This document shows, one piece after another, positions 1,448 through 11,138 of a stretch of 33,826 bases of DNA. Positions within the stretch are counted from its first letter, which is position 1, and the number at the start of each line of letters is the position of its first letter. A model generated the notes under the pieces. That model saw only the letters and a list, made by a program, of their open reading frames with translations. It was not told the origin of the DNA and did no database searches. This stretch comes from a virus, in the IMG/VR virus record IMGVR_UViG_3300030294_001243, positions 1-33,826 of that record; one strand, given 5' to 3'. The position numbers and the translations under genes were made by a program.

Positions 1448-4400
1448 ATGAAATACAGTGAAGACGATAAGAACCGTATAATTGAGGCGGCTGATAATAA
1501 TCTCCTGAAGGTAATAAGCTCTTTTATTACTTTAGAAAAAAGAGGTTCCGACTATGTAGGAAAATGCCCTATGTGCGGAGAACCTAGAGGCCTACACTAT
1601 ACTGAAGGTAAAAAAATATTTAAATGTTTCCATTGCAACGAGCTTAAGGGAAACAATGCTGTAACTCTGCTTATGAAGGGATTTAATAAAACCTTTCCTG
1701 AAGCATTAGAAGACCTCGGTAATCTATTTGGTATATATCTTCCTATACAAGATCAATCGAAAGAGGTCAAGGAAGCAACAGTATCTAAAGTTAATAATAA
1801 GAAGAAAGGCCGCAAAAGTAAGGGCGAGTCTCTAGATTCTTATTGTGCTCGTATGTTGGCTGAAAGCGGACTCACTTTTGAAGATGTTACGGCTAAAGTC
1901 TATAAAAGCGATGAAAAATCGACTATATTCGAATGCAAGACATTTCATGCCGGTACGGTATCGCCCAAAGGCGAAATCGATAATACCGGGGACGATGCCA
2001 TTATTGAATATTATGACTTAGCCGGATTCCCAGTTAAGTATGATGTTTTAGATGCGAAAGGTAGAGCCACGACCGAAAAGAAATCTTACTTCCGTGTTCG
2101 GTGGCAATATCCGGACGAACATAAGAATAAAGATTCTAAACCTACTAAGTATCGGAGCCCACGTGGATCAGGAACGCCAATATATATTCCGGAACGTCTT
2201 CGGAAAATGTATAATGCCGGTACTGAGATTCCTCGCCTCTATATTCAAGAGGGAGAAAAAAAGGCAGAAGCTTCTTGCAAGTATGATATTCCTTCTATTG
2301 CTATATCAGGAATACAGAATCTCGGACAGAAAGGAGCCCTTCCGGAAGACCTGATCCGGATCATTCAAAAATGCTCTGTTCATGAAGTTGTGCTACTTTT
2401 CGATTCTGATTGGAACGATATCGGAGAACATATTAAGCTTAGCGATGCCGTTGATCAACGCCCGCGTAACTTCTTTTATGCTGCTAGGAATTATAAGGAA
2501 TACATGCGATCTCTTAAGAATCGCGAGATATTCGTAGAAATTTTTATAGGGCACGTAAATAAGAACGAAGCCGGTGACAAAGGTATCGATGATCTTCTTG
2601 CCAATACCCTGAAGGGAAAAGAAAAAGAATTAGCGGAGGATATTGAGTACGCTATCAATGAGAAAAACAAAGAGGGCAAATACTGTACATTTTTTCAAAT
2701 AACCTCGCATTCAGATCATAAGCTCGAGGAGTTATGGTCACTTAATAATCCGAAAAAATTCGCAGAAGCTCATCGCGATATCCTTCGTAATCTTCCTGAA
2801 TTTAAACTTGGCCGCCACCTTTGGAAATTCTCCCCGGACGGAGAGTTGGAAAGCGCCCAACCGCTTGAGTCCGATGAAACATTTTGGCGCGAAATAGAGA
2901 AAACAAAGAGGGATGGAACTTCTTACACAGAATACGAATTCCGATATGTTCGTAGCAGAATATTCTTGCAAAATCACGGTTTCGGGCGCTTTCGGCAAAT
3001 TGATAACCAATTTTGCTTCATTCATTTAACTCCACCATTTGTGCGCGAGATATTACCCTCAGATGCCCGTGATTTTCTTTTTGAATTTACTGAGGTCAAT
3101 TGCAAAGAAGAAATAAATGAAATGATATCTAAGGGAGTTAGCCAGTATGTTGGCCCCGATAAGCTTTCACTACTCAAATTTATATTTCCGAACTTTATTC
3201 CATCAACAAGGGATGAACAATTTTTTTATTTTGGCCAGCAATGCTGGAAAGTTTCACAGACATCCGTTGTAGAGTCCGGATATGAACAAATAAGCCATCA
3301 CATTTGGATCGACCAGATGAGGAAATTCAAAGCTGCTTATATAGGTTCTCCTCTCATTCAGTTCCAAGATTGTGACGGTCAATATCTATATAGCATGTCG
3401 GCAGCCGGCACAAAATGCCATTTCTTGCGTTTTTTGGAAAACACTTCTAATTTTACTTGGCGGAAAGAAAAAGATATTGCCGCAGGAGAAAAAGTAGAGA
3501 TTACGGATGCTGAAAAAAAGGAGAATAGACAGCACCTTCTCTCCAAATTGTGCGCTATTGGTTATCTGATGATGACATGTAAGGATCCCAATGTTGCGCG
3601 AGCTGTAATAGGCATGGATGGCGCGCAATCTGAGGTAGGGGAGAGTAACGGGCGCTCAGGTAAATCGTTAATTGGTGAACTAATGAGACAGGTACTTCCT
3701 CTTACGTACATTGATGGAAAGAAGCGGGACATGTTTAATGACGGATTTATCTGGAATGACGTCAGCGAAAAAACTCGTATTGTATTTATTGATGACGTAC
3801 TGCAAAACTTTCAGTTTGAAAGCCTTTTCCCATGTATAACAGGCGATTGGAATGTAAACTATAAAGGTGGCCGCCGTATTAGCCTCCCTTTCTCATTTTC
3901 TCCAAAGATATATATTGCTACAAACCATGCAATTAAAGGTAGTGGTAGCAGTTTCTCTGATCGTCAATGGCTACTTGCATTCTCTGATTTTTATAATAGT
4001 TCCCATAAACCGGCTGATGACTTTGGTTGTTTATTCTTCCATGAATGGGACTATGAACAGTGGAATCTATGTTGGAATATGATGGCCAACTGCGTACAGC
4101 TGTACATGAAGTTTGGTGTAATTCAAGCATCTGGAGAACGCCTAGAGCAGCGCAAGTTACGACAAGAAATAACTGAAGGATTCCTTTCATGGGCGGAAGA
4201 ATATTTTTCGTCAGAAACAAAAATAAATGCAAGAATAAATAAAAAAGAACTGGTAGATTCATATAGAATCTATGATCCAGTAAATAGCAAATTCTGTACC
4301 CCAACAGAATTTAAAAAGCGTATAACTAAATATTGTGAATGGAAAGGATATACATTTAATCCTCACCGTTATGATCCGGTAACTGGAAAACCTTTTTCTT

Positions 4401-4597
4401 TCGACAAGGATGGCCGTGCAATAACGGTCGATAAATCGGGCGGAATAGAATTTTTTACCGTGGGTAATAAAAATTACTTCAAAGAGAATCCAGCTCCTGC
4501 ACCAAATACTGCAGCAGTAGATGGAAAAATCGCTGATAAAAATGAAGTAGATGAACTGCCATTTGCTCCAAGTAAAGATAACAATTATCTATTTTGA
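1448..4597 (+). CDS. Primase-helicase: zinc finger, TOPRIM and SF3-type ATPase
   Basis: A 1049-residue replication protein. Residues 40-63 hold a CHC2-like zinc finger (CPMC ... CFHC). Residues about 263-325 hold a TOPRIM-type core, with acidic E268 in LYIQEGEKKAEA and D319/D321 in VVLLFDSDWND. A C-terminal ATPase has Walker A GESNGRSGKS (731-740), Walker B RIVFIDD (777-783), sensor-like IATN near 824-827 and an arginine in SDRQW (839), the layout of SF3/D5-type helicases. The middle (about 330-700) is unassigned. Such a protein would both prime and unwind the phage genome. No DNA polymerase gene is visible, so host polymerase is probably recruited. The next gene starts two bases after its stop. 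Confidence 0.93.
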   Translation: MKYSEDDKNRIIEAADNNLLKVISSFITLEKRGSDYVGKCPMCGEPRGLHYTEGKKIFKCFHCNELKGNNAVTLLMKGFNKTFPEALEDLGNLFGIYLPIQDQSKEVKEATVSKVNNKKKGRKSKGESLDSYCARMLAESGLTFEDVTAKVYKSDEKSTIFECKTFHAGTVSPKGEIDNTGDDAIIEYYDLAGFPVKYDVLDAKGRATTEKKSYFRVRWQYPDEHKNKDSKPTKYRSPRGSGTPIYIPERLRKMYNAGTEIPRLYIQEGEKKAEASCKYDIPSIAISGIQNLGQKGALPEDLIRIIQKCSVHEVVLLFDSDWNDIGEHIKLSDAVDQRPRNFFYAARNYKEYMRSLKNREIFVEIFIGHVNKNEAGDKGIDDLLANTLKGKEKELAEDIEYAINEKNKEGKYCTFFQITSHSDHKLEELWSLNNPKKFAEAHRDILRNLPEFKLGRHLWKFSPDGELESAQPLESDETFWREIEKTKRDGTSYTEYEFRYVRSRIFLQNHGFGRFRQIDNQFCFIHLTPPFVREILPSDARDFLFEFTEVNCKEEINEMISKGVSQYVGPDKLSLLKFIFPNFIPSTRDEQFFYFGQQCWKVSQTSVVESGYEQISHHIWIDQMRKFKAAYIGSPLIQFQDCDGQYLYSMSAAGTKCHFLRFLENTSNFTWRKEKDIAAGEKVEITDAEKKENRQHLLSKLCAIGYLMMTCKDPNVARAVIGMDGAQSEVGESNGRSGKSLIGELMRQVLPLTYIDGKKRDMFNDGFIWNDVSEKTRIVFIDDVLQNFQFESLFPCITGDWNVNYKGGRRISLPFSFSPKIYIATNHAIKGSGSSFSDRQWLLAFSDFYNSSHKPADDFGCLFFHEWDYEQWNLCWNMMANCVQLYMKFGVIQASGERLEQRKLRQEITEGFLSWAEEYFSSETKINARINKKELVDSYRIYDPVNSKFCTPTEFKKRITKYCEWKGYTFNPHRYDPVTGKPFSFDKDGRAITVDKSGGIEFFTVGNKNYFKENPAPAPNTAAVDGKIADKNEVDELPFAPSKDNNYLF

Positions 4598-4599
4598 TT

Positions 4600-4926
4600 A
4601 TGGAACGTCCTAACCTACACCAATATGCCTATAACGGCGACGAAGATTTTAAAGAATTCCGCGAACAAGATGATGCCGGATTTCATGCGTATTTTTTGAA
4701 AATATTCGATTTTTTTGATGCGATAAAAGAGGGTGAAGAAATCGATGTTCTTAAAATAGTTTCCCCGGAGAGCTATAAAAAGTTCACCAAAGTTGCCGGA
4801 TATTATATGCAATGCGACCTCGTTCAGAAAGGCGCATTTGGTGGTATTCTTCAATATAGAGACGAAAAAGAAACTCTAATATTTAGAAATTATAATTCGT
4901 ATAAAAATAGAACCAAATGCAATTAG
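4600..4926 (+). CDS. Hypothetical early protein
   Basis: A 108-residue acidic protein of unknown function. A TTG codon upstream (4594) would overlap the primase stop, but ATG at 4600 two bases after that stop is the better start. It is rich in Phe, Tyr and Lys with a predicted helical centre (AYFLKIFDFFDAIKEGEEID). It overlaps the next gene by 10 bp, which suggests coupled translation in the early operon. I see no recognisable motif. Confidence 0.75.
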   Translation: MERPNLHQYAYNGDEDFKEFREQDDAGFHAYFLKIFDFFDAIKEGEEIDVLKIVSPESYKKFTKVAGYYMQCDLVQKGAFGGILQYRDEKETLIFRNYNSYKNRTKCN

Positions 4927-5243
4927 AAAAGAAAATCATGTTATGCGTTGATAGCGACGCTGAGACAAGAAAAAAAATGATTAGCAAACTGGCCGTACAG
5001 ATGGGACTCGCTATAATCCCAAGTGATTCTTCCAAGCTAATTAAGTCAGACATTTACGATGTCGATCTAGAGAATGATTATATAATTCTCTGCGACAATG
5101 TAGATCTATCCGGATCGGACCGTATTCTTCACGCTTTATATCGTCGTGCAGCACTTGGCGCTCCGGTTATTATCGGCGCCAAGAAAATGAATAAAGTCGC
5201 AGAATTCATGTGCTGCGTTCATTACTCAAGTAATTTACTTTAA
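4917..5243 (+). CDS. Hypothetical early protein, alpha/beta
   Basis: Up to 108 residues, unknown function. Alternating hydrophobic strands (KIMLCVDSD at the start, DYIILCDNVDLSG near the middle, APVIIGAKK near the end) suggest a small alpha/beta fold, superficially like a receiver or P-loop-less Rossmann layout, but no signature motif is present. The ATG at 4917 overlaps the gene before; an ATG at 4938 would give a shorter protein without overlap. It ends in a Cys pair (FMCCVHY). Confidence 0.72.
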   Translation: MQLEKKIMLCVDSDAETRKKMISKLAVQMGLAIIPSDSSKLIKSDIYDVDLENDYIILCDNVDLSGSDRILHALYRRAALGAPVIIGAKKMNKVAEFMCCVHYSSNLL

Positions 5244-5253
5244 ACTCCCTTTT

Positions 5254-5589
5254 ATGAAAGACAAAACCTCATTCAAAGCAACGATCAATGATCGCTTCAT
5301 CAGCAAGAAGATGAAGAAGAAACATTTATTCAATTACATTCAGAAGATTCACCGAGAATTAACCCGGCTACAGAAAGAGAATAAAGAGTTAAATTCTGCG
5401 CTTGTGTCTTATGCTGGCGACATATTTAAAATCAAGAAATTAAAAGAAGAAATACAGGCCGAAATGGCCGAACTTAAAAGGAATGAACGACAGTATTTAA
5501 AGGAGTCGATTTTTGCATTATGCTTCGGAGCATTATTTGCTGCATTCGCAATTCTTTTGGTAAGGCTTATTATACGTTCAATTATTTAA
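5254..5589 (+). CDS. Membrane-anchored coiled-coil protein
   Basis: A 111-residue protein with a basic N-terminus (about 1-30), a long charged coiled coil (about 30-88, many Leu/Lys/Glu heptads) and a hydrophobic C-terminal segment (about 89-111, LCFGALFAAFAILLVRLII) that would be a single membrane anchor. The shape, a cytoplasmic coiled coil tethered by its tail, is seen in phage membrane-associated and spanin- or exclusion-type proteins, but position in the early operon argues against lysis. Function unknown. Confidence 0.75.
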   Translation: MKDKTSFKATINDRFISKKMKKKHLFNYIQKIHRELTRLQKENKELNSALVSYAGDIFKIKKLKEEIQAEMAELKRNERQYLKESIFALCFGALFAAFAILLVRLIIRSII

Positions 5590-5605
5590 TAAACAAAAGA
5601 CGGAA

Positions 5606-5797
5606 ATGGAAACAATTGGATTAATCCTAATGGCTATAATCGTTATAGTCGGCTTCTGGGCGATATATCGCGCTGGAGTAGCATCAGACAAGTTATCCGA
5701 TCGATTAGATCGATGTGAGGTTAGACTTGATATCATTGAAGAAGGAAAAGTTCTAGAGCCTACTGAAATTACTGAATCGCAACAAAACAATAAGTAG
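5606..5797 (+). CDS. Small N-terminally anchored membrane protein
   Basis: 63 residues with a hydrophobic segment at about 5-25 (GLILMAIIVIVGFWAIYRAG) and a charged, helical tail (about 29-50, DKLSDRLDRCEVRLDIIEEG) ending in a polar Gln/Asn stretch. It follows another membrane-anchored coiled-coil protein by 16 bp; the two have opposite anchor positions and might interact. The single-TM layout could fit a holin, but it sits in the early region with no endolysin nearby, so I leave it as unknown. Confidence 0.72.
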   Translation: METIGLILMAIIVIVGFWAIYRAGVASDKLSDRLDRCEVRLDIIEEGKVLEPTEITESQQNNK

Positions 5798-5801
5798 AGC
5801 C

Positions 5802-6236
5802 ATGATACAAAGAATATTCACCCAAAACGGTAAAACACTCGTATTTTACAAAGAACACAACGATACAAAGTTTTCTTTTCTAATAGATGGCGAACCAGAA
5901 TTAACAGAATTGCTGCTTGCTAATTGTAATACTAAAAGAGTAACAGCTAGAGAGTTAATATATGCTGTTCCAGGCATATTCTCCAAAATAGAAGCCGGAT
6001 TAGTTAAACCTTATGTTGGGAGTCACCCGATGATTAAACTTTCAGAATATTGCCAAAAGCGTTGGGGGGAGAACATTGTATGTGAGATTGCGCAAAAAGA
6101 TGGTCCTGTGTATTCTCCAACAATATTAGTTAAGCTAACACTTCCAAATGGTGATTGCTATACCGGATCCGGAAGTAACCAGCGCATAGCTCGTCAACTA
6201 GCAGCTTCAGCTGCAATGGATTTTTTAGGAATCTAA
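5802..6236 (+). CDS. Double-stranded-RNA-binding-domain protein
   Basis: A 144-residue early protein. Residues 76-143 fit the dsRBD consensus: P76-x3-L80-x-E82-x2-Q85 in helix 1, the G-P pair (101-102) before strand 2, strands ILVKLTL and DCYTGSG, then G124-S-N-x-R-x-A at the start of helix 2 and the small-residue helix RIARQLAASAAMDFL. The usual KK of helix 2 is QR here, so RNA affinity may differ. Residues 1-70 are an unassigned N-terminal domain with strands (KTLVFYKE, FSFLIDG). There is no RNase III or deaminase domain, so it is a stand-alone binder. It lies mid-operon, 5 bp after a membrane protein gene. A role in shielding phage dsRNA is a hypothesis. Confidence 0.8.
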   Translation: MIQRIFTQNGKTLVFYKEHNDTKFSFLIDGEPELTELLLANCNTKRVTARELIYAVPGIFSKIEAGLVKPYVGSHPMIKLSEYCQKRWGENIVCEIAQKDGPVYSPTILVKLTLPNGDCYTGSGSNQRIARQLAASAAMDFLGI

Positions 6237-6259
6237 TAATAACAAAAAAAGCAACAAAG

Positions 6260-6643
6260 ATGGATACACAAGAATTAAAGAAAAAATATCCTGATTTAGT
6301 AGTATCTAAATCAGAGTTCCCGGTAGTATATTCTGCCTCTGATTTAATGTCTAAATTAAAAGAGGCATACGGTATTAATGCAATAAATAGAATTATACAT
6401 ATGGAGCATAGTGGTAGAAATGTGACTCTCTATCTAAGTGTAGAGTATGGATCTTTCATCTCTCAATTAGCTCCAGGGAGTAGCGTTATCATGACAGGAG
6501 CCGACATAGAATTCAATCCGGAGTGGAAAGATAAAGTTTGGGAAATATCTTATGGTCCTGCCATGATGTGTGGCGAATGGGTTGTGTGGTTAAAAGACTT
6601 TAGCGGGGCGTATAGCTGTCAATATCTAAAATTAGAATTATAA
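6260..6643 (+). CDS. Hypothetical early protein
   Basis: 127 residues, unrecognised. It has a Lys-rich N-terminal helix, then mixed helix and strands, with Trp-rich strands near the C-terminus (WKDKVWEISYG, GEWVVWLKDFSG). This suggests a compact beta-rich C-terminal domain, but no motif is identifiable. It sits between the dsRNA-binding-domain gene and the metallopeptidase-like gene in the early operon. Confidence 0.72.
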   Translation: MDTQELKKKYPDLVVSKSEFPVVYSASDLMSKLKEAYGINAINRIIHMEHSGRNVTLYLSVEYGSFISQLAPGSSVIMTGADIEFNPEWKDKVWEISYGPAMMCGEWVVWLKDFSGAYSCQYLKLEL

Positions 6644-6653
6644 ATCCATCGCC

Positions 6654-7052
6654 ATGTCACTAACGCTAAATAAAATTTATGAGTTCGATCCCGTGATTTA
6701 TCCATACGGTATCTGGATTGTTATCGATAATAATCCCAATTTGATACCAGATCTATTCGATGAATATAGCGGGAAACCGATTGAATCAATTGATAGAGAT
6801 ACTAAGGGATTGGAAGCGTTTACAATGCCTGTAATCAGAAAAGAGAATCCAAAATTTGGGGTTGTTATCTTTTTTCGGTCAAAGGAAAGCATGACGTTCG
6901 AATTAGCTGCGCATGAGTCCTCTCATGCTGCCAAGTATCTATTTGAGCATATAGGCGCAAACGTAGCTGCACACGAAACATTTGAGTTCCTTGTTGGTTG
7001 GATTGCCAGCTGTATTGGGGAAATAAAATCAGGAAATATAATAATACTTTAA
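6654..7052 (+). CDS. Zinc metallopeptidase-like protein with HESSH
   Basis: 132 residues. The motif HESSH at 87-91 (inside TFELAAHESSHAAKYLFEHIG) is the HExxH zinc signature; H87 and H91 would bind zinc, E88 would be catalytic, and E108 in AAHETFEFLVGW is placed to be the third ligand 17 residues later, as in gluzincins. Small phage proteins with this HExxH ... E arrangement are common and mostly uncharacterised. The rest is a short alpha/beta N-terminal part. As an early cytoplasmic protein it could cleave a host or phage target. Activity is inferred from the motif. Confidence 0.75.
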   Translation: MSLTLNKIYEFDPVIYPYGIWIVIDNNPNLIPDLFDEYSGKPIESIDRDTKGLEAFTMPVIRKENPKFGVVIFFRSKESMTFELAAHESSHAAKYLFEHIGANVAAHETFEFLVGWIASCIGEIKSGNIIIL

Positions 7053-7063
7053 GACTAACAATT

Positions 7064-7264
7064 ATGAGCTATTTAAAAAGACAAATAGAGGATCAGGAAG
7101 AACTTTATTCTGATTTAATCAATCGTGGTGAATCTACTTCTAATAAGGCTAAATATAAGAAACCTGAGGTATTGGCAGAAAGTACTAATATGATGGTGCT
7201 ATGTAGACCAGTAAGTATACCAAGTGGTAGCCCGTGCAATCCGCCAAAGCCAGCCGGACGATGA
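7064..7264 (+). CDS. Small hypothetical protein
   Basis: 66 residues from the ATG at 7064. An upstream in-frame start at 6998 would overlap the previous gene by 55 bp and is unlikely. The N-terminal half is charged and helical (LKRQIEDQEELYSDLINRGE); the C-terminal half ends in a Pro/Gly/Cys-rich tail (SGSPCNPPKPAGR). It lies in a gap of suitable size in the operon and has normal codon use. Function unknown. Confidence 0.5.
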   Translation: MSYLKRQIEDQEELYSDLINRGESTSNKAKYKKPEVLAESTNMMVLCRPVSIPSGSPCNPPKPAGR

Positions 7265-7310
7265 CGCAATGATAAGTAAATATAGTAACATCTTAACAAC
7301 GAAAAAAATC

Positions 7311-7811
7311 ATGCATTTATACTTTAAAACAAAAAAAGAGAGTGAAACTGGAAGTAAGTTTCACGAGCTAGAGGAACGTGGCCTTGCTTGTGGAGAGGCT
7401 GTAAAACAATTCCTTGATAAGTACCATTTTCAATGTTATCGGCCTAGTAGAATATCGTTTGTAGGTGGGATTTCTGCATGCTGTAGCCCTACGCAAATAG
7501 TTGATAGAGCTCTTTGGAAAGAGACTGGAACTGGACCTGAAGAATATATGCCCCGGCTTAATATTAAAAAAGGCAAAGCAATTATGGAAGAAATAAAAGT
7601 TTTGCCAATTGTCGATATCGATGAGCTCAATAAAGTGGTAGGATATCCTGGCAACGGATTTAAATCCTCTACAATTGGATTCTCAGGTCGAGCTGCTTGT
7701 AAAAGCCATTATGGCTTTATCATCCTTGATACTTGGAACGTCAAAGTTCCTAATGATTGTGAGGAAATCACAGCAAGTGAGTATAAAAAAATGTTTTTAA
7801 AAGAAAAATAA
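7311..7811 (+). CDS. Hypothetical early protein
   Basis: 166 residues from ATG 7311, which follows an A-rich leader. A GTG at 7224 opens the same frame but overlaps the upstream gene and adds an unlikely N-terminus. The protein starts with LYFKTKKESETGSKFHELEE and has two Cys-containing loops (SACCSPTQIV, RAACKSHYGF). No family is recognised, and no catalytic signature stands out. It is part of the rightward early operon, five bases before the next gene. Confidence 0.75.
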   Translation: MHLYFKTKKESETGSKFHELEERGLACGEAVKQFLDKYHFQCYRPSRISFVGGISACCSPTQIVDRALWKETGTGPEEYMPRLNIKKGKAIMEEIKVLPIVDIDELNKVVGYPGNGFKSSTIGFSGRAACKSHYGFIILDTWNVKVPNDCEEITASEYKKMFLKEK

Positions 7812-7815
7812 AATC

Positions 7816-8226
7816 ATGGAAAAGAGCATAAACATAATACCTGGTACACGGGTAGTAACTAAATTTAAGAAGGATGGCAGTACGGTTACCATTTCCCTGC
7901 CAGAAAATAAAAATTACAAATTCAAAGATGGTGATTTTGTTCGTTCAGTTTGTCGTTTTCTTAGTCATGAATGGTATTATATCTACAAGGGTGTTGATGA
8001 AAATGGAGCTATAAAGTTCTACGCTTTATTTGATGAAAAATTTGTTTGCAAAGAAAAGAAGATAAGCTTTGGAATCGGATATTATATGGACCATGTCGAA
8101 TCGCGAATTATGACGATGGTAGAAAAAACAAAAGCTATTGAGTCCTTAAAAATTGCCGGCAGCCAATGGGATGCTGAAAATAAGCGTATGGTTAATATTA
8201 AGCCTGAATTTAAACCCGAACTATAA
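7816..8226 (+). CDS. Hypothetical early protein
   Basis: 136 residues, unknown. The first half looks beta-rich (VVTKFKKDGSTVTISLPE, a FKDGDFV turn, then WYYIYKG), resembling a small SH3/OB-like barrel. The second half is helical and ends with WDAENKRMVNIKPEFKPEL, a tail I have the impression of seeing in other Bacteroides phage proteins. It lies 4 bp after the previous gene and 11 bp before the next. Confidence 0.75.
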   Translation: MEKSINIIPGTRVVTKFKKDGSTVTISLPENKNYKFKDGDFVRSVCRFLSHEWYYIYKGVDENGAIKFYALFDEKFVCKEKKISFGIGYYMDHVESRIMTMVEKTKAIESLKIAGSQWDAENKRMVNIKPEFKPEL

Positions 8227-8237
8227 TACATACAATA

Positions 8238-8504
8238 ATGGAAATAACTAAAATTCGCATAGGGAAAGCTATGCTCATAGACACTCGTGAAGATGTCTAT
8301 AATCTTGAATTTAAATTGGATGATGATAAGCGTTTCTATGGATACTCCTACGATCATTTCCAAACAAAGAAAGATGCTCAGTTGGCCTTGAATAATCACA
8401 ATAGCGGTTGCTTGGTGTATAAGCCCTTCCGTAAAATATCTAACTCGAGGCGATGGTGGCTTAAGGCAGAGGTTCCTGCCGATGCCTTGCCTTTCTTTAT
8501 ATAA
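8238..8504 (+). CDS. Hypothetical early protein
   Basis: 88 residues, unknown. A beta-hairpin-like N-terminus (KIRIGKAMLIDTREDVYNLE) is followed by an aromatic, basic centre (RFYGYSYDHF, RKISNSRRWWLKAEV). The Arg/Trp-rich segment could bind nucleic acid, but this is speculative. Its stop shares one base with the next start (TAATG). Confidence 0.72.
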   Translation: MEITKIRIGKAMLIDTREDVYNLEFKLDDDKRFYGYSYDHFQTKKDAQLALNNHNSGCLVYKPFRKISNSRRWWLKAEVPADALPFFI

Positions 8505-8878
8505 TGGAAAAATTACCAACCTTTCAGCTACCATTATTGCTACAATGGAATGAAGAAGCAGTTGCCGCAGACTGGAAACTCGCTATTGATACAATAATAT
8601 ACCGATCGAATATATCTAAGGAATATGTTTTTTCGTGCGTAGGACTTCATTATTGGTTTGTTCTATTCGGAGGGAATTCACAAGTAGACTTCGATATCAG
8701 AGATGTATGCGCGCATCTAGAAATCGAGTTCAGTGAAAAAGAACATGAATTTAAATATATGCTTAAAAAAATAAGAGCCATTTATCGCAAAGTGGGCAAT
8801 AAGGGCATTTTGTCTTTGTCAGATATATCTGTTGAAAAAGTAGATATAACCGCCGATGTTAATGATTTCCCTTTCTAA
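8504..8878 (+). CDS. Hypothetical early protein with SSB-like acidic PF tail
   Basis: 124 residues, unknown fold: largely helical with aromatic strands in the middle (LHYWFVLFGG). The last residues, DITADVNDFPF, are acidic and end in Pro-Phe, like the C-terminal tip of bacterial SSB (DDDIPF) that docks replication and repair proteins. No OB-fold pattern is obvious, so it may be a non-SSB protein that mimics the tip. It is translationally coupled to the gene before it and precedes a methyltransferase. Confidence 0.72.
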   Translation: MEKLPTFQLPLLLQWNEEAVAADWKLAIDTIIYRSNISKEYVFSCVGLHYWFVLFGGNSQVDFDIRDVCAHLEIEFSEKEHEFKYMLKKIRAIYRKVGNKGILSLSDISVEKVDITADVNDFPF

Positions 8879-8888
8879 ATATTTTCCT

Positions 8889-9371
8889 ATGAAAAAATAT
8901 AGAAAGAAAGTATTGGATGTCTGTTGTGGTCCCCGAATGATGTGGTTTGATAAGGAAAACCCTTTGGCCATGTTTGTAGATATTCGCAAAGAAAGTTTCA
9001 TTGCATGTGATGGCCGCACTATTAATATTGATCCGGATCTTATTGCAGATTTTAGGAGCCTACCTTTTGATGACAATAGTTTTAAATTAGTCGTTTTTGA
9101 TCCGCCACATGATCGATATGCTGGCAAGAATAGTTTCCTGGCACAAAAGTATGGAAAGCTCTCTGAAACATGGGAAAGCGATCTATCTAAAGGATTTAAT
9201 GAATGTATGAGAGTTCTATGCGACGATGGTATATTAATTTTTAAATGGAATGAAATTAGATTCCCGGTTAGCAGAATACTTTCTCTTTTCAATCAGGATC
9301 CGCTATTTGGACATAAGTCCGGAAAAGCTTCAAAAACGCATTGGCTTTGCTTTATGAAAAATCAAAAATAA
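8889..9371 (+). CDS. SAM-dependent methyltransferase, class I
   Basis: 160 residues from ATG 8889; an earlier in-frame start (8856) would overlap the previous gene. Motif I is VLDVCCGPRMMWF (8-20), an acidic residue follows strand 2 (D31), and the catalytic-type motif is FDPPH (70-74), close to the DPPY of amino-methyltransferases. Order motif I then DPPH matches the gamma-type arrangement without a target-recognition domain. It could methylate DNA bases (anti-restriction) or another substrate; the short length and absent recognition domain leave this open. It ends with a strand-rich KTHWLCFMKN. Confidence 0.82.
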   Translation: MKKYRKKVLDVCCGPRMMWFDKENPLAMFVDIRKESFIACDGRTINIDPDLIADFRSLPFDDNSFKLVVFDPPHDRYAGKNSFLAQKYGKLSETWESDLSKGFNECMRVLCDDGILIFKWNEIRFPVSRILSLFNQDPLFGHKSGKASKTHWLCFMKNQK

Positions 9372-9385
9372 TATAATTTATAATT

Positions 9386-9640
9386 ATGGAAAAATCAAAA
9401 GTACTAGAGGCCATCCTTGAAATGGCCAAAGACGATAATAAAGGGCTTATGATGAGCGATACAGTTGTTTCTGCATCAGAACACCCTAAAGGAGGTATCA
9501 TTTCTTTTGGCGTTCCTAAAGCGATAATGGAGGATGCTAAGCTAGTTAATCCTTTTTTTACTACAGCGTACTTGCATGTTTCATTCGCGATCGATCGCAA
9601 GGAGCTTAAAGCGTATCTAGCAAAACAATCAAACGGATGA
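9386..9640 (+). CDS. Small hypothetical protein
   Basis: 84 residues, unknown. It has an N-terminal helix (SKVLEAILEMAKDDNKG), a central strand-turn region (GGIISFGVPKAIM) and a final helix (DRKELKAYLAKQ). Its TGA stop overlaps the next start (ATGA), so the last two genes of the early operon are coupled. Confidence 0.72.
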   Translation: MEKSKVLEAILEMAKDDNKGLMMSDTVVSASEHPKGGIISFGVPKAIMEDAKLVNPFFTTAYLHVSFAIDRKELKAYLAKQSNG

Positions 9641-10658: not shown

Positions 10659-11138
10659 ATGTACACTGTAAGGATTAAACTTAAGGCACATGTGGCTGAA
10701 TATTTACAAGGGAAATTCGGCACAGGAACTCCGGTACTCGTAAGATTGCCGAATAGCAGCGATTTATTCTTTGTTTTGCTTGACTTGCTTTCTAAACGCC
10801 CTGAATCGTGCCCAGTTGATAGAGGTAACTGTGAAATTCTAATTCCTGATCGCGAATATGGCAAACATCCGGTGGTGTACAATTATATATCAGATAATGC
10901 TCAAGAAGTTTTTTCTGCGCATGCTGAGTGTGTTATGTGGGCAGATATTCATCAGTATATGGAGGAGCAAAAGCATGTGAAGGGAATTAACTATCTTCAG
11001 AGTGCGTATTTCATAGTCGAATCTTTAAAGATAAAGTCGATCTCTACTGATGCTATAATTAAGAATCATTTCCGATGGAGAAAGCGTTGTAGAAGGACGT
11101 GGACTTCGCGAAAAAAAGTTTCCATGAAAATGGGCTGA
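10659..11138 (+). CDS. Basic, probably DNA-binding phage protein
   Basis: 159 residues; I do not recognise a named family. The first 60 residues look alpha/beta (YTVRIKLKAHVAEYLQGKFG, then LFFVLLDLLSKRPE). The C-terminal part (about 108-155) has helices (YLQSAYFIVESLKIKS, STDAIIKNHFRWRKRCRR) and a very basic tail with seven or more Arg/Lys in NHFRWRKRCRRTWTSRKK, a shape that fits DNA binding. It stands alone between the early and late modules, driven by its own host-type promoter inside the AATCGTGC cluster. It could be a late-gene activator or an origin-binding protein; both are inferences from place and charge. Confidence 0.82.
   Translation: MYTVRIKLKAHVAEYLQGKFGTGTPVLVRLPNSSDLFFVLLDLLSKRPESCPVDRGNCEILIPDREYGKHPVVYNYISDNAQEVFSAHAECVMWADIHQYMEEQKHVKGINYLQSAYFIVESLKIKSISTDAIIKNHFRWRKRCRRTWTSRKKVSMKMG

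Follow-up and report, generated by a model that had tools for sequence, protein, structure and literature searches.

A stand-alone double-stranded-RNA-binding-domain protein of a probable Bacteroidales phage belongs to a rare phage family that may cloak RNA

Introduction

Double-stranded-RNA-binding domains (dsRBDs) typify both the RNA-sensing immunity of eukaryotes and the viral inhibitors of that immunity. What such a domain might do on its own in a phage is the question raised by one small gene in the IMG/VR virus record IMGVR_UViG_3300030294_001243, which was analysed as a single stretch of 33,826 nt (hereafter, the window). The features discussed are collected in Table 1.

Table 1. Features of the dsRBD gene and its surroundings in the window.
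Feature	Position	Strand	Evidence
Primase-helicase-type replication protein	1448..4597	+	CHC2 zinc finger E=1.4e-11; phrog_510 DNA primase
Accessory block of genes that includes the dsRBD gene	5254..9640	+	No counterparts in relatives having both the primase and the flanking anchors in common
Two-domain phage dsRBD protein, 144 aa	5802..6236	+	ORF; Pfam dsrm; NG86 dN well below dS for full-length relatives
N-terminal domain, residues 1-66, predicted beta-beta-beta-alpha-beta-alpha	5802..5999	+	AlphaFold2 pLDDT mostly 81-90; alignments A7, A8; L131
Low-confidence linker, residues 68-74	6003..6023	+	pLDDT <50
dsRBD, residues 76-143	6027..6230	+	PF00035 E=7e-10; match to 2nug with Z 13.3 and 1.0 A over 69 residues
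Putative minor-groove contacts of helix alpha1, among them E82 and Q85, both invariant	6039..6056	+	Alignments A6, A7
Beta1-beta2 loop GPVY, residues 101-104; Tyr replaces the His kept in 9/9 relatives	6102..6113	+	Family alignment
First residues of alpha2, N-Q-R-I-A-R (126-131), KKxAK-equivalent; 2/3 basic positions kept	6177..6194	+	Family alignment

Domain content and predicted fold

The gene has an ATG start and lies in a tightly packed plus-strand run, 4 nt after ORF 5606-5797 and 23 nt before ORF 6260-6643. Residues 79-140 of its product match the Pfam dsrm family at 39.8 bits (cut-off 23), bearing out the first-pass annotation, in which residues 76-143 had been matched to the dsRBD consensus. 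The same annotation held that the protein has no nuclease or deaminase domain, and Pfam and NCBIfam scans found neither. NCBIfam gave only sub-threshold matches, made through the dsRBD; the RNase III catalytic domain was not found, TIGR02191 reaching 17.7 of the 166 bits needed with its dsRBD part only, and Ribonuclease_3 giving no match. The protein has no PHROG match at E<=1 and no PADLOC model. It likely binds double-stranded RNA (dsRNA), and because a catalytic domain is absent, binding itself is probably its activity.

From the single sequence, AlphaFold2 gave an unusable model (pLDDT 38); a seven-sequence family alignment (A6) gave a pLDDT of 84.7. Structure prediction and comparison with dsRBD folds, the check proposed at first pass, resulted in an alpha-beta-beta-beta-alpha arrangement at residues 76-142 and in dsRBDs as the top PDB matches, the best being dsRNA-bound Aquifex RNase III (2nug_A) and further ones including Xlrbpa (1di2; Z 12.9, 1.4 A), Staufen and TRBP. 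Viral structural matches (BFVD) were mostly DRBM proteins of eukaryotic viruses, among them vaccinia OPG065. The N-terminal 70 or so residues, earlier taken for a second domain, are modelled as such over residues 1-66, with no Pfam family; the fold search hardly probed this N-domain, for which no novelty of fold is claimed. It probably dimerises the protein or directs it to a partner.

Putative RNA-contact residues

All ten members of the family described below have the Glu of helix 1, and each has a basic residue at two or more of the three lysine-motif positions. The first-pass annotation had pointed to the replacement of KK by QR in helix 2 as a sign of an unusual ligand. The first two lysines are indeed changed, the KKxAK positions being occupied by Gln (in place of the first Lys), R128 and R131; the ligand signature does not stand, because the family pattern is N-[QK]-[KR]-x-A-[KR], with Lys or Arg at the third position in 10 of 10 members, and the third basic residue is kept here, so that QR is ordinary. 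In the family alignment, the real oddity is instead the change from GPxH to GPVY in the beta1-beta2 loop, which reads GADH, GPDH, GQDH or GSCH in the nine relatives and always retains the His. Within the phage clade, only one branch is longer than that of this protein. Because of the loop substitution and the long branch, its ligand preference may differ, or have drifted, from that of its relatives. The net positive charge of the dsRBD is small.

These residues bear on a reading in which the dsRBD fold has been turned to a purpose other than duplex RNA, as a cyclic-nucleotide sponge or a HicA-like toxin. The anti-CBASS sponge Acb4 (PF13876) is a phage protein for which a dsRBD-like fold has been reported (PMC11722364), and the relative in phage005 adjoins an Apyc1-like gene, but we consider such a role very improbable for a protein that matches PF00035 itself, retains most RNA-contact positions, has neither PF13876 nor a HicA family listed at E<=10 (hmmscan, subject to HMMER filters), and lacks the conserved loop His that might otherwise be proposed as catalytic.

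A rare, phage-restricted family

Free-standing dsRBD proteins had been called rare in phages at first pass, and a tblastn search of 50,697 phage records agrees, finding a full-length homologue (35.5% identity, E=7e-19) in two records, both entries of one phage, Porphyromonas phage phage005; a third match was at chance level and was left aside. Other relatives were sought by a pattern scan for the NQK motif and an HMM, then by profile scans for the dsRBD and for the N-domain, yielding L113, L115, L118, L119, L120, L122, L129 and L133, which with phage005 make nine dsRBD relatives. Every relative tested scores above the PF00035 cut-off. Seven of the nine also conserve the N-domain; the others, L115/L116 and L122, consist of the dsRBD only (71 and 80 aa), so the dsRBD can occur alone. 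Conversely, L131:4989-5399, which precedes a YqaJ exonuclease gene by about 1.5 kb, joins the N-domain to an unrelated and unassigned C-terminal part, and the N-domain is therefore modular, a phage domain in its own right. Both domains are present in L113, where the reading frame shifts within eight consecutive T and the N-domain is thereby severed from its likely start. This apparent one-base frameshift (L113:4360-4425, minus strand) may be an assembly error, a mutation or a slippage site; translation from an internal ATG would give a dsRBD with no N-domain, 71 aa long as in L115. In the comparisons that allowed an estimate of dS, dN/dS is about 0.14-0.37 in both domains (NG86), and dN well below dS in each points to purifying selection. 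HMM matches L123 and L124 were rejected as members, being RNase III, as was a weak match in L021, which sits inside a long, probably capsid-type ORF. No member has a PHROG or PADLOC match, and searches of the open-access literature found no account of such a phage dsRBD protein; the family is genuine and rare, and apparently undescribed.

A stand-alone dsRBD was not encountered in the 60 Bacteroidales genomes sampled. Exactly one PF00035 match occurs in 57 of them, always within an open frame of 190-360 codons, and the 30 such frames that were retrieved all match RNase III. When 393, 395 and 399 genomes (partly overlapping draws) were searched with the family profile, a single member was found, on a 35.6-kb prophage-like contig (G890 C31, 35,633) that equals the L120 contig in length and is taken to be the same prophage; besides it there were two matches identified on reading as RNase III, and one weak match. 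Protein-level scans with the window's protein alone returned only a near-identical copy, and nothing in genome contigs; a plasmid search returned only an RNase III. In these searches the family is phage-restricted. In the tree, its dsRBDs cluster together and are separated from Bacteroidales RNase III with support of 100/97, on few columns and long branches. Recent capture from a Bacteroidales RNase III, considered as an origin, is unsupported by this tree of a short alignment.

Genomic setting in the window

The dsRBD gene lies downstream of the primase gene and hence on the replication side of the genome; its placement in a phage operon, proposed at first pass, corresponds to the tight plus-strand run there. 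Judged by position, its expression is inferred to be early. A repressor-type regulator is encoded at 314-769. The gene is accessory in its own phage group, since none of 40 related records carries a PF00035 match. The accessory block is a hotspot of about ten mostly unassigned small genes between conserved anchors at 4917-5243 and 10659-11138, and the two anchors lie 5.74 kb apart, whereas the distance at 24 related loci is 0.86-2.47 kb. Within the hotspot, a phrog_954 DNA methyltransferase gene (8856-9371) has a homologue in phage005, two genes past the dsRBD gene of that phage. The genomes that hold relatives of the primase, those of Bacteroides, Tannerellaceae, Paludibacter and similar organisms, indicate that the host, taken to be a gut bacterium, very probably belongs to the order Bacteroidales. 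A primase of the same group of phages also turned up on a contig binned as Oscillospiraceae (L063), which has probably been misassigned.

The protein could be an RNA chaperone, or a regulator acting post-transcriptionally on the phage itself, that binds structured leaders or antisense RNA of the phage operons and thereby sets translation or decay. The close packing of the operon, the repressor-type regulator, a dsRBD with no enzyme attached and the existence of dsRBD-only members would suit that role; dsRBDs are only weakly sequence-specific, however, and the neighbourhoods of the relatives are diverse, and we regard it as distinctly unlikely.

Neighbourhoods of the relatives

Four of the ten dsRBD loci (phage005, L118, L119 and L120), together with the N-domain-only locus L131, lie inside phage recombination modules, with genes for RecT, Sak4/AAA_24, YqaJ or ExoVIII-type exonucleases and SbcC-like ATPases. 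In phage005 the order is SbcC-like protein, RecT, metallo-beta-lactamase (MBL) hydrolase and dsRBD protein. In L118 the dsRBD gene is followed directly by a phrog_1499 ATPase gene and, further on, by a Sak4-type AAA_24 gene; in L119 it is followed by Sak4 AAA_24, YqaJ exonuclease and phrog_1499 ATPase genes; and in L120 RecT (PF03837 E=7.5e-14) is directly upstream, with an ExoVIII-like nuclease (phrog_412) and an SNF2 helicase downstream. The phrog_1499 proteins (L118:6231-7523, L119:8122-9420) match a family that the phage005 SbcC-like protein matches too, which suggests that these proteins of "unknown function" are RecF/SbcC-like recombination ATPases. The MBL hydrolase adjoining the phage005 dsRBD gene (L002:6959-7801) is annotated as an Apyc1-like, anti-Pycsar counter-defence nuclease; its gene immediately follows that for RecT, the PHROG it matches best is a generic metal-dependent hydrolase, and it could equally be a nuclease of the recombination module. 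Helicase-loader, primase or other early-type genes were recognised by reading in L113, L115 and L129, and not in L122 or L133. The window has no recombination gene near its dsRBD gene, and rough probes drawn from the family loci found none in L113, L115, L122, L129 or L133; as probes of this origin make zero counts in control loci unfair, the linkage is used only qualitatively, and the association with recombination modules is suggestive.

These neighbourhoods make a serious rival of the idea that the protein is an accessory factor of phage DNA replication or recombination, binding RNA:DNA hybrids, R-loops or fork RNA alongside single-strand annealing proteins and exonucleases, with the N-domain as a docking site. 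The position of the window's gene downstream of the primase would fit, as would the N-domain with a different C-terminus near the YqaJ exonuclease of L131. Functions are mixed within early gene clusters, though, no recombination gene is near the dsRBD gene in the window or was found by the probes in the five loci named above, and a canonical dsRBD prefers A-form dsRNA; on balance such a role seems somewhat unlikely.

RNA cloaking as the leading reading

The leading reading, held tentatively and somewhat short of an even chance, is that the protein cloaks RNA against RNase III or an RNA-sensing defence. Its canonical C-terminal dsRBD would bind A-form duplex RNA; made early, as the position of its gene suggests, the protein may coat structured or sense-antisense duplex transcripts of the phage, and the coating might shield these transcripts against the RNase III of the host or against a defence triggered by RNA, for instance a CD-NTase sensor of structured phage RNA, to the presumed benefit of the phage. 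The working principle would be analogous to that of viral dsRBD proteins such as poxvirus E3. A Staphylococcus CD-NTase is activated by structured phage RNA (PMC10686824), which establishes the existence of such sensors but not any opposition to them by the protein described here.

RNA cloaking is favoured by the PF00035 match and the structural match to dsRNA-bound dsRBDs, by the contact residues kept, by the lack of an enzyme and by the dsRBD-only members; it is also favoured by the phage-restricted and accessory nature of the gene, by the Apyc1-like neighbour in phage005 and by the known RNA-sensing CD-NTase. Weighed against it are the relatives in recombination modules, the loop His replaced by Tyr on a long branch, the small net charge, and a designation as early that comes from position. 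The immune evasion proposed in the first-pass annotation is thus kept as a leading reading, now beside a serious rival raised by the recombination-module setting of four of the ten loci. That the family as a whole is the first bacteriophage dsRNA-cloaking family, of small early dsRBD proteins with an exchangeable N-domain hiding structured RNA from RNase III or bacterial sensors, is a broader and doubtful proposition.

Comparison with known systems

The dsRBD of bacterial RNase III (PF00035 within TIGR02191) resembles that of the phage protein in fold (1.0-1.3 A over about 70 residues), in the helix-1 Glu and in an Ala/Gln-rich alpha2, whereas the phage protein lacks the RNase III catalytic domain, its dsRBD belongs to the separate clade, and the family motif replaces the S-K-K-x-A-E of most Bacteroidales RNase III. 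Acb4 is likewise a phage protein with a reported dsRBD-like fold (PMC11722364) but differs in the PF13876 match that the window's protein lacks, and the latter retains most of the dsRNA-contact motif.

Protein XAW31776.1 of phage005 is a full-length homologue (35-37% identity) with the same two domains, annotated as hypothetical; unlike the window's protein it retains the His in its GQDH loop, and its gene adjoins those for the SbcC-like protein, RecT and the Apyc1-like MBL hydrolase. Phage005 is an active prophage (PMC10367356), which makes the question of function testable.

Poxvirus E3 (vaccinia OPG065) and other viral inhibitors that bind dsRNA are likewise small viral proteins with an N-terminal domain, a C-terminal dsRBD and no enzyme. 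The phage N-domain is, however, predicted to differ in fold from the winged-helix Z-nucleic-acid domain of E3, for which the window's protein has no Pfam match at E<=10, and the dsRBD is the one domain that the two share. In the sampled Bacteroidales genomes the dsRBD is confined to frames of RNase III length, against which stands a phage-restricted stand-alone family, offering a handle on whether DNA phages must manage duplex RNA in infection and whether bacterial defences sense it. If the family does cloak dsRNA, it would be a convergent counterpart of the viral inhibitors of eukaryotic RNA sensing.
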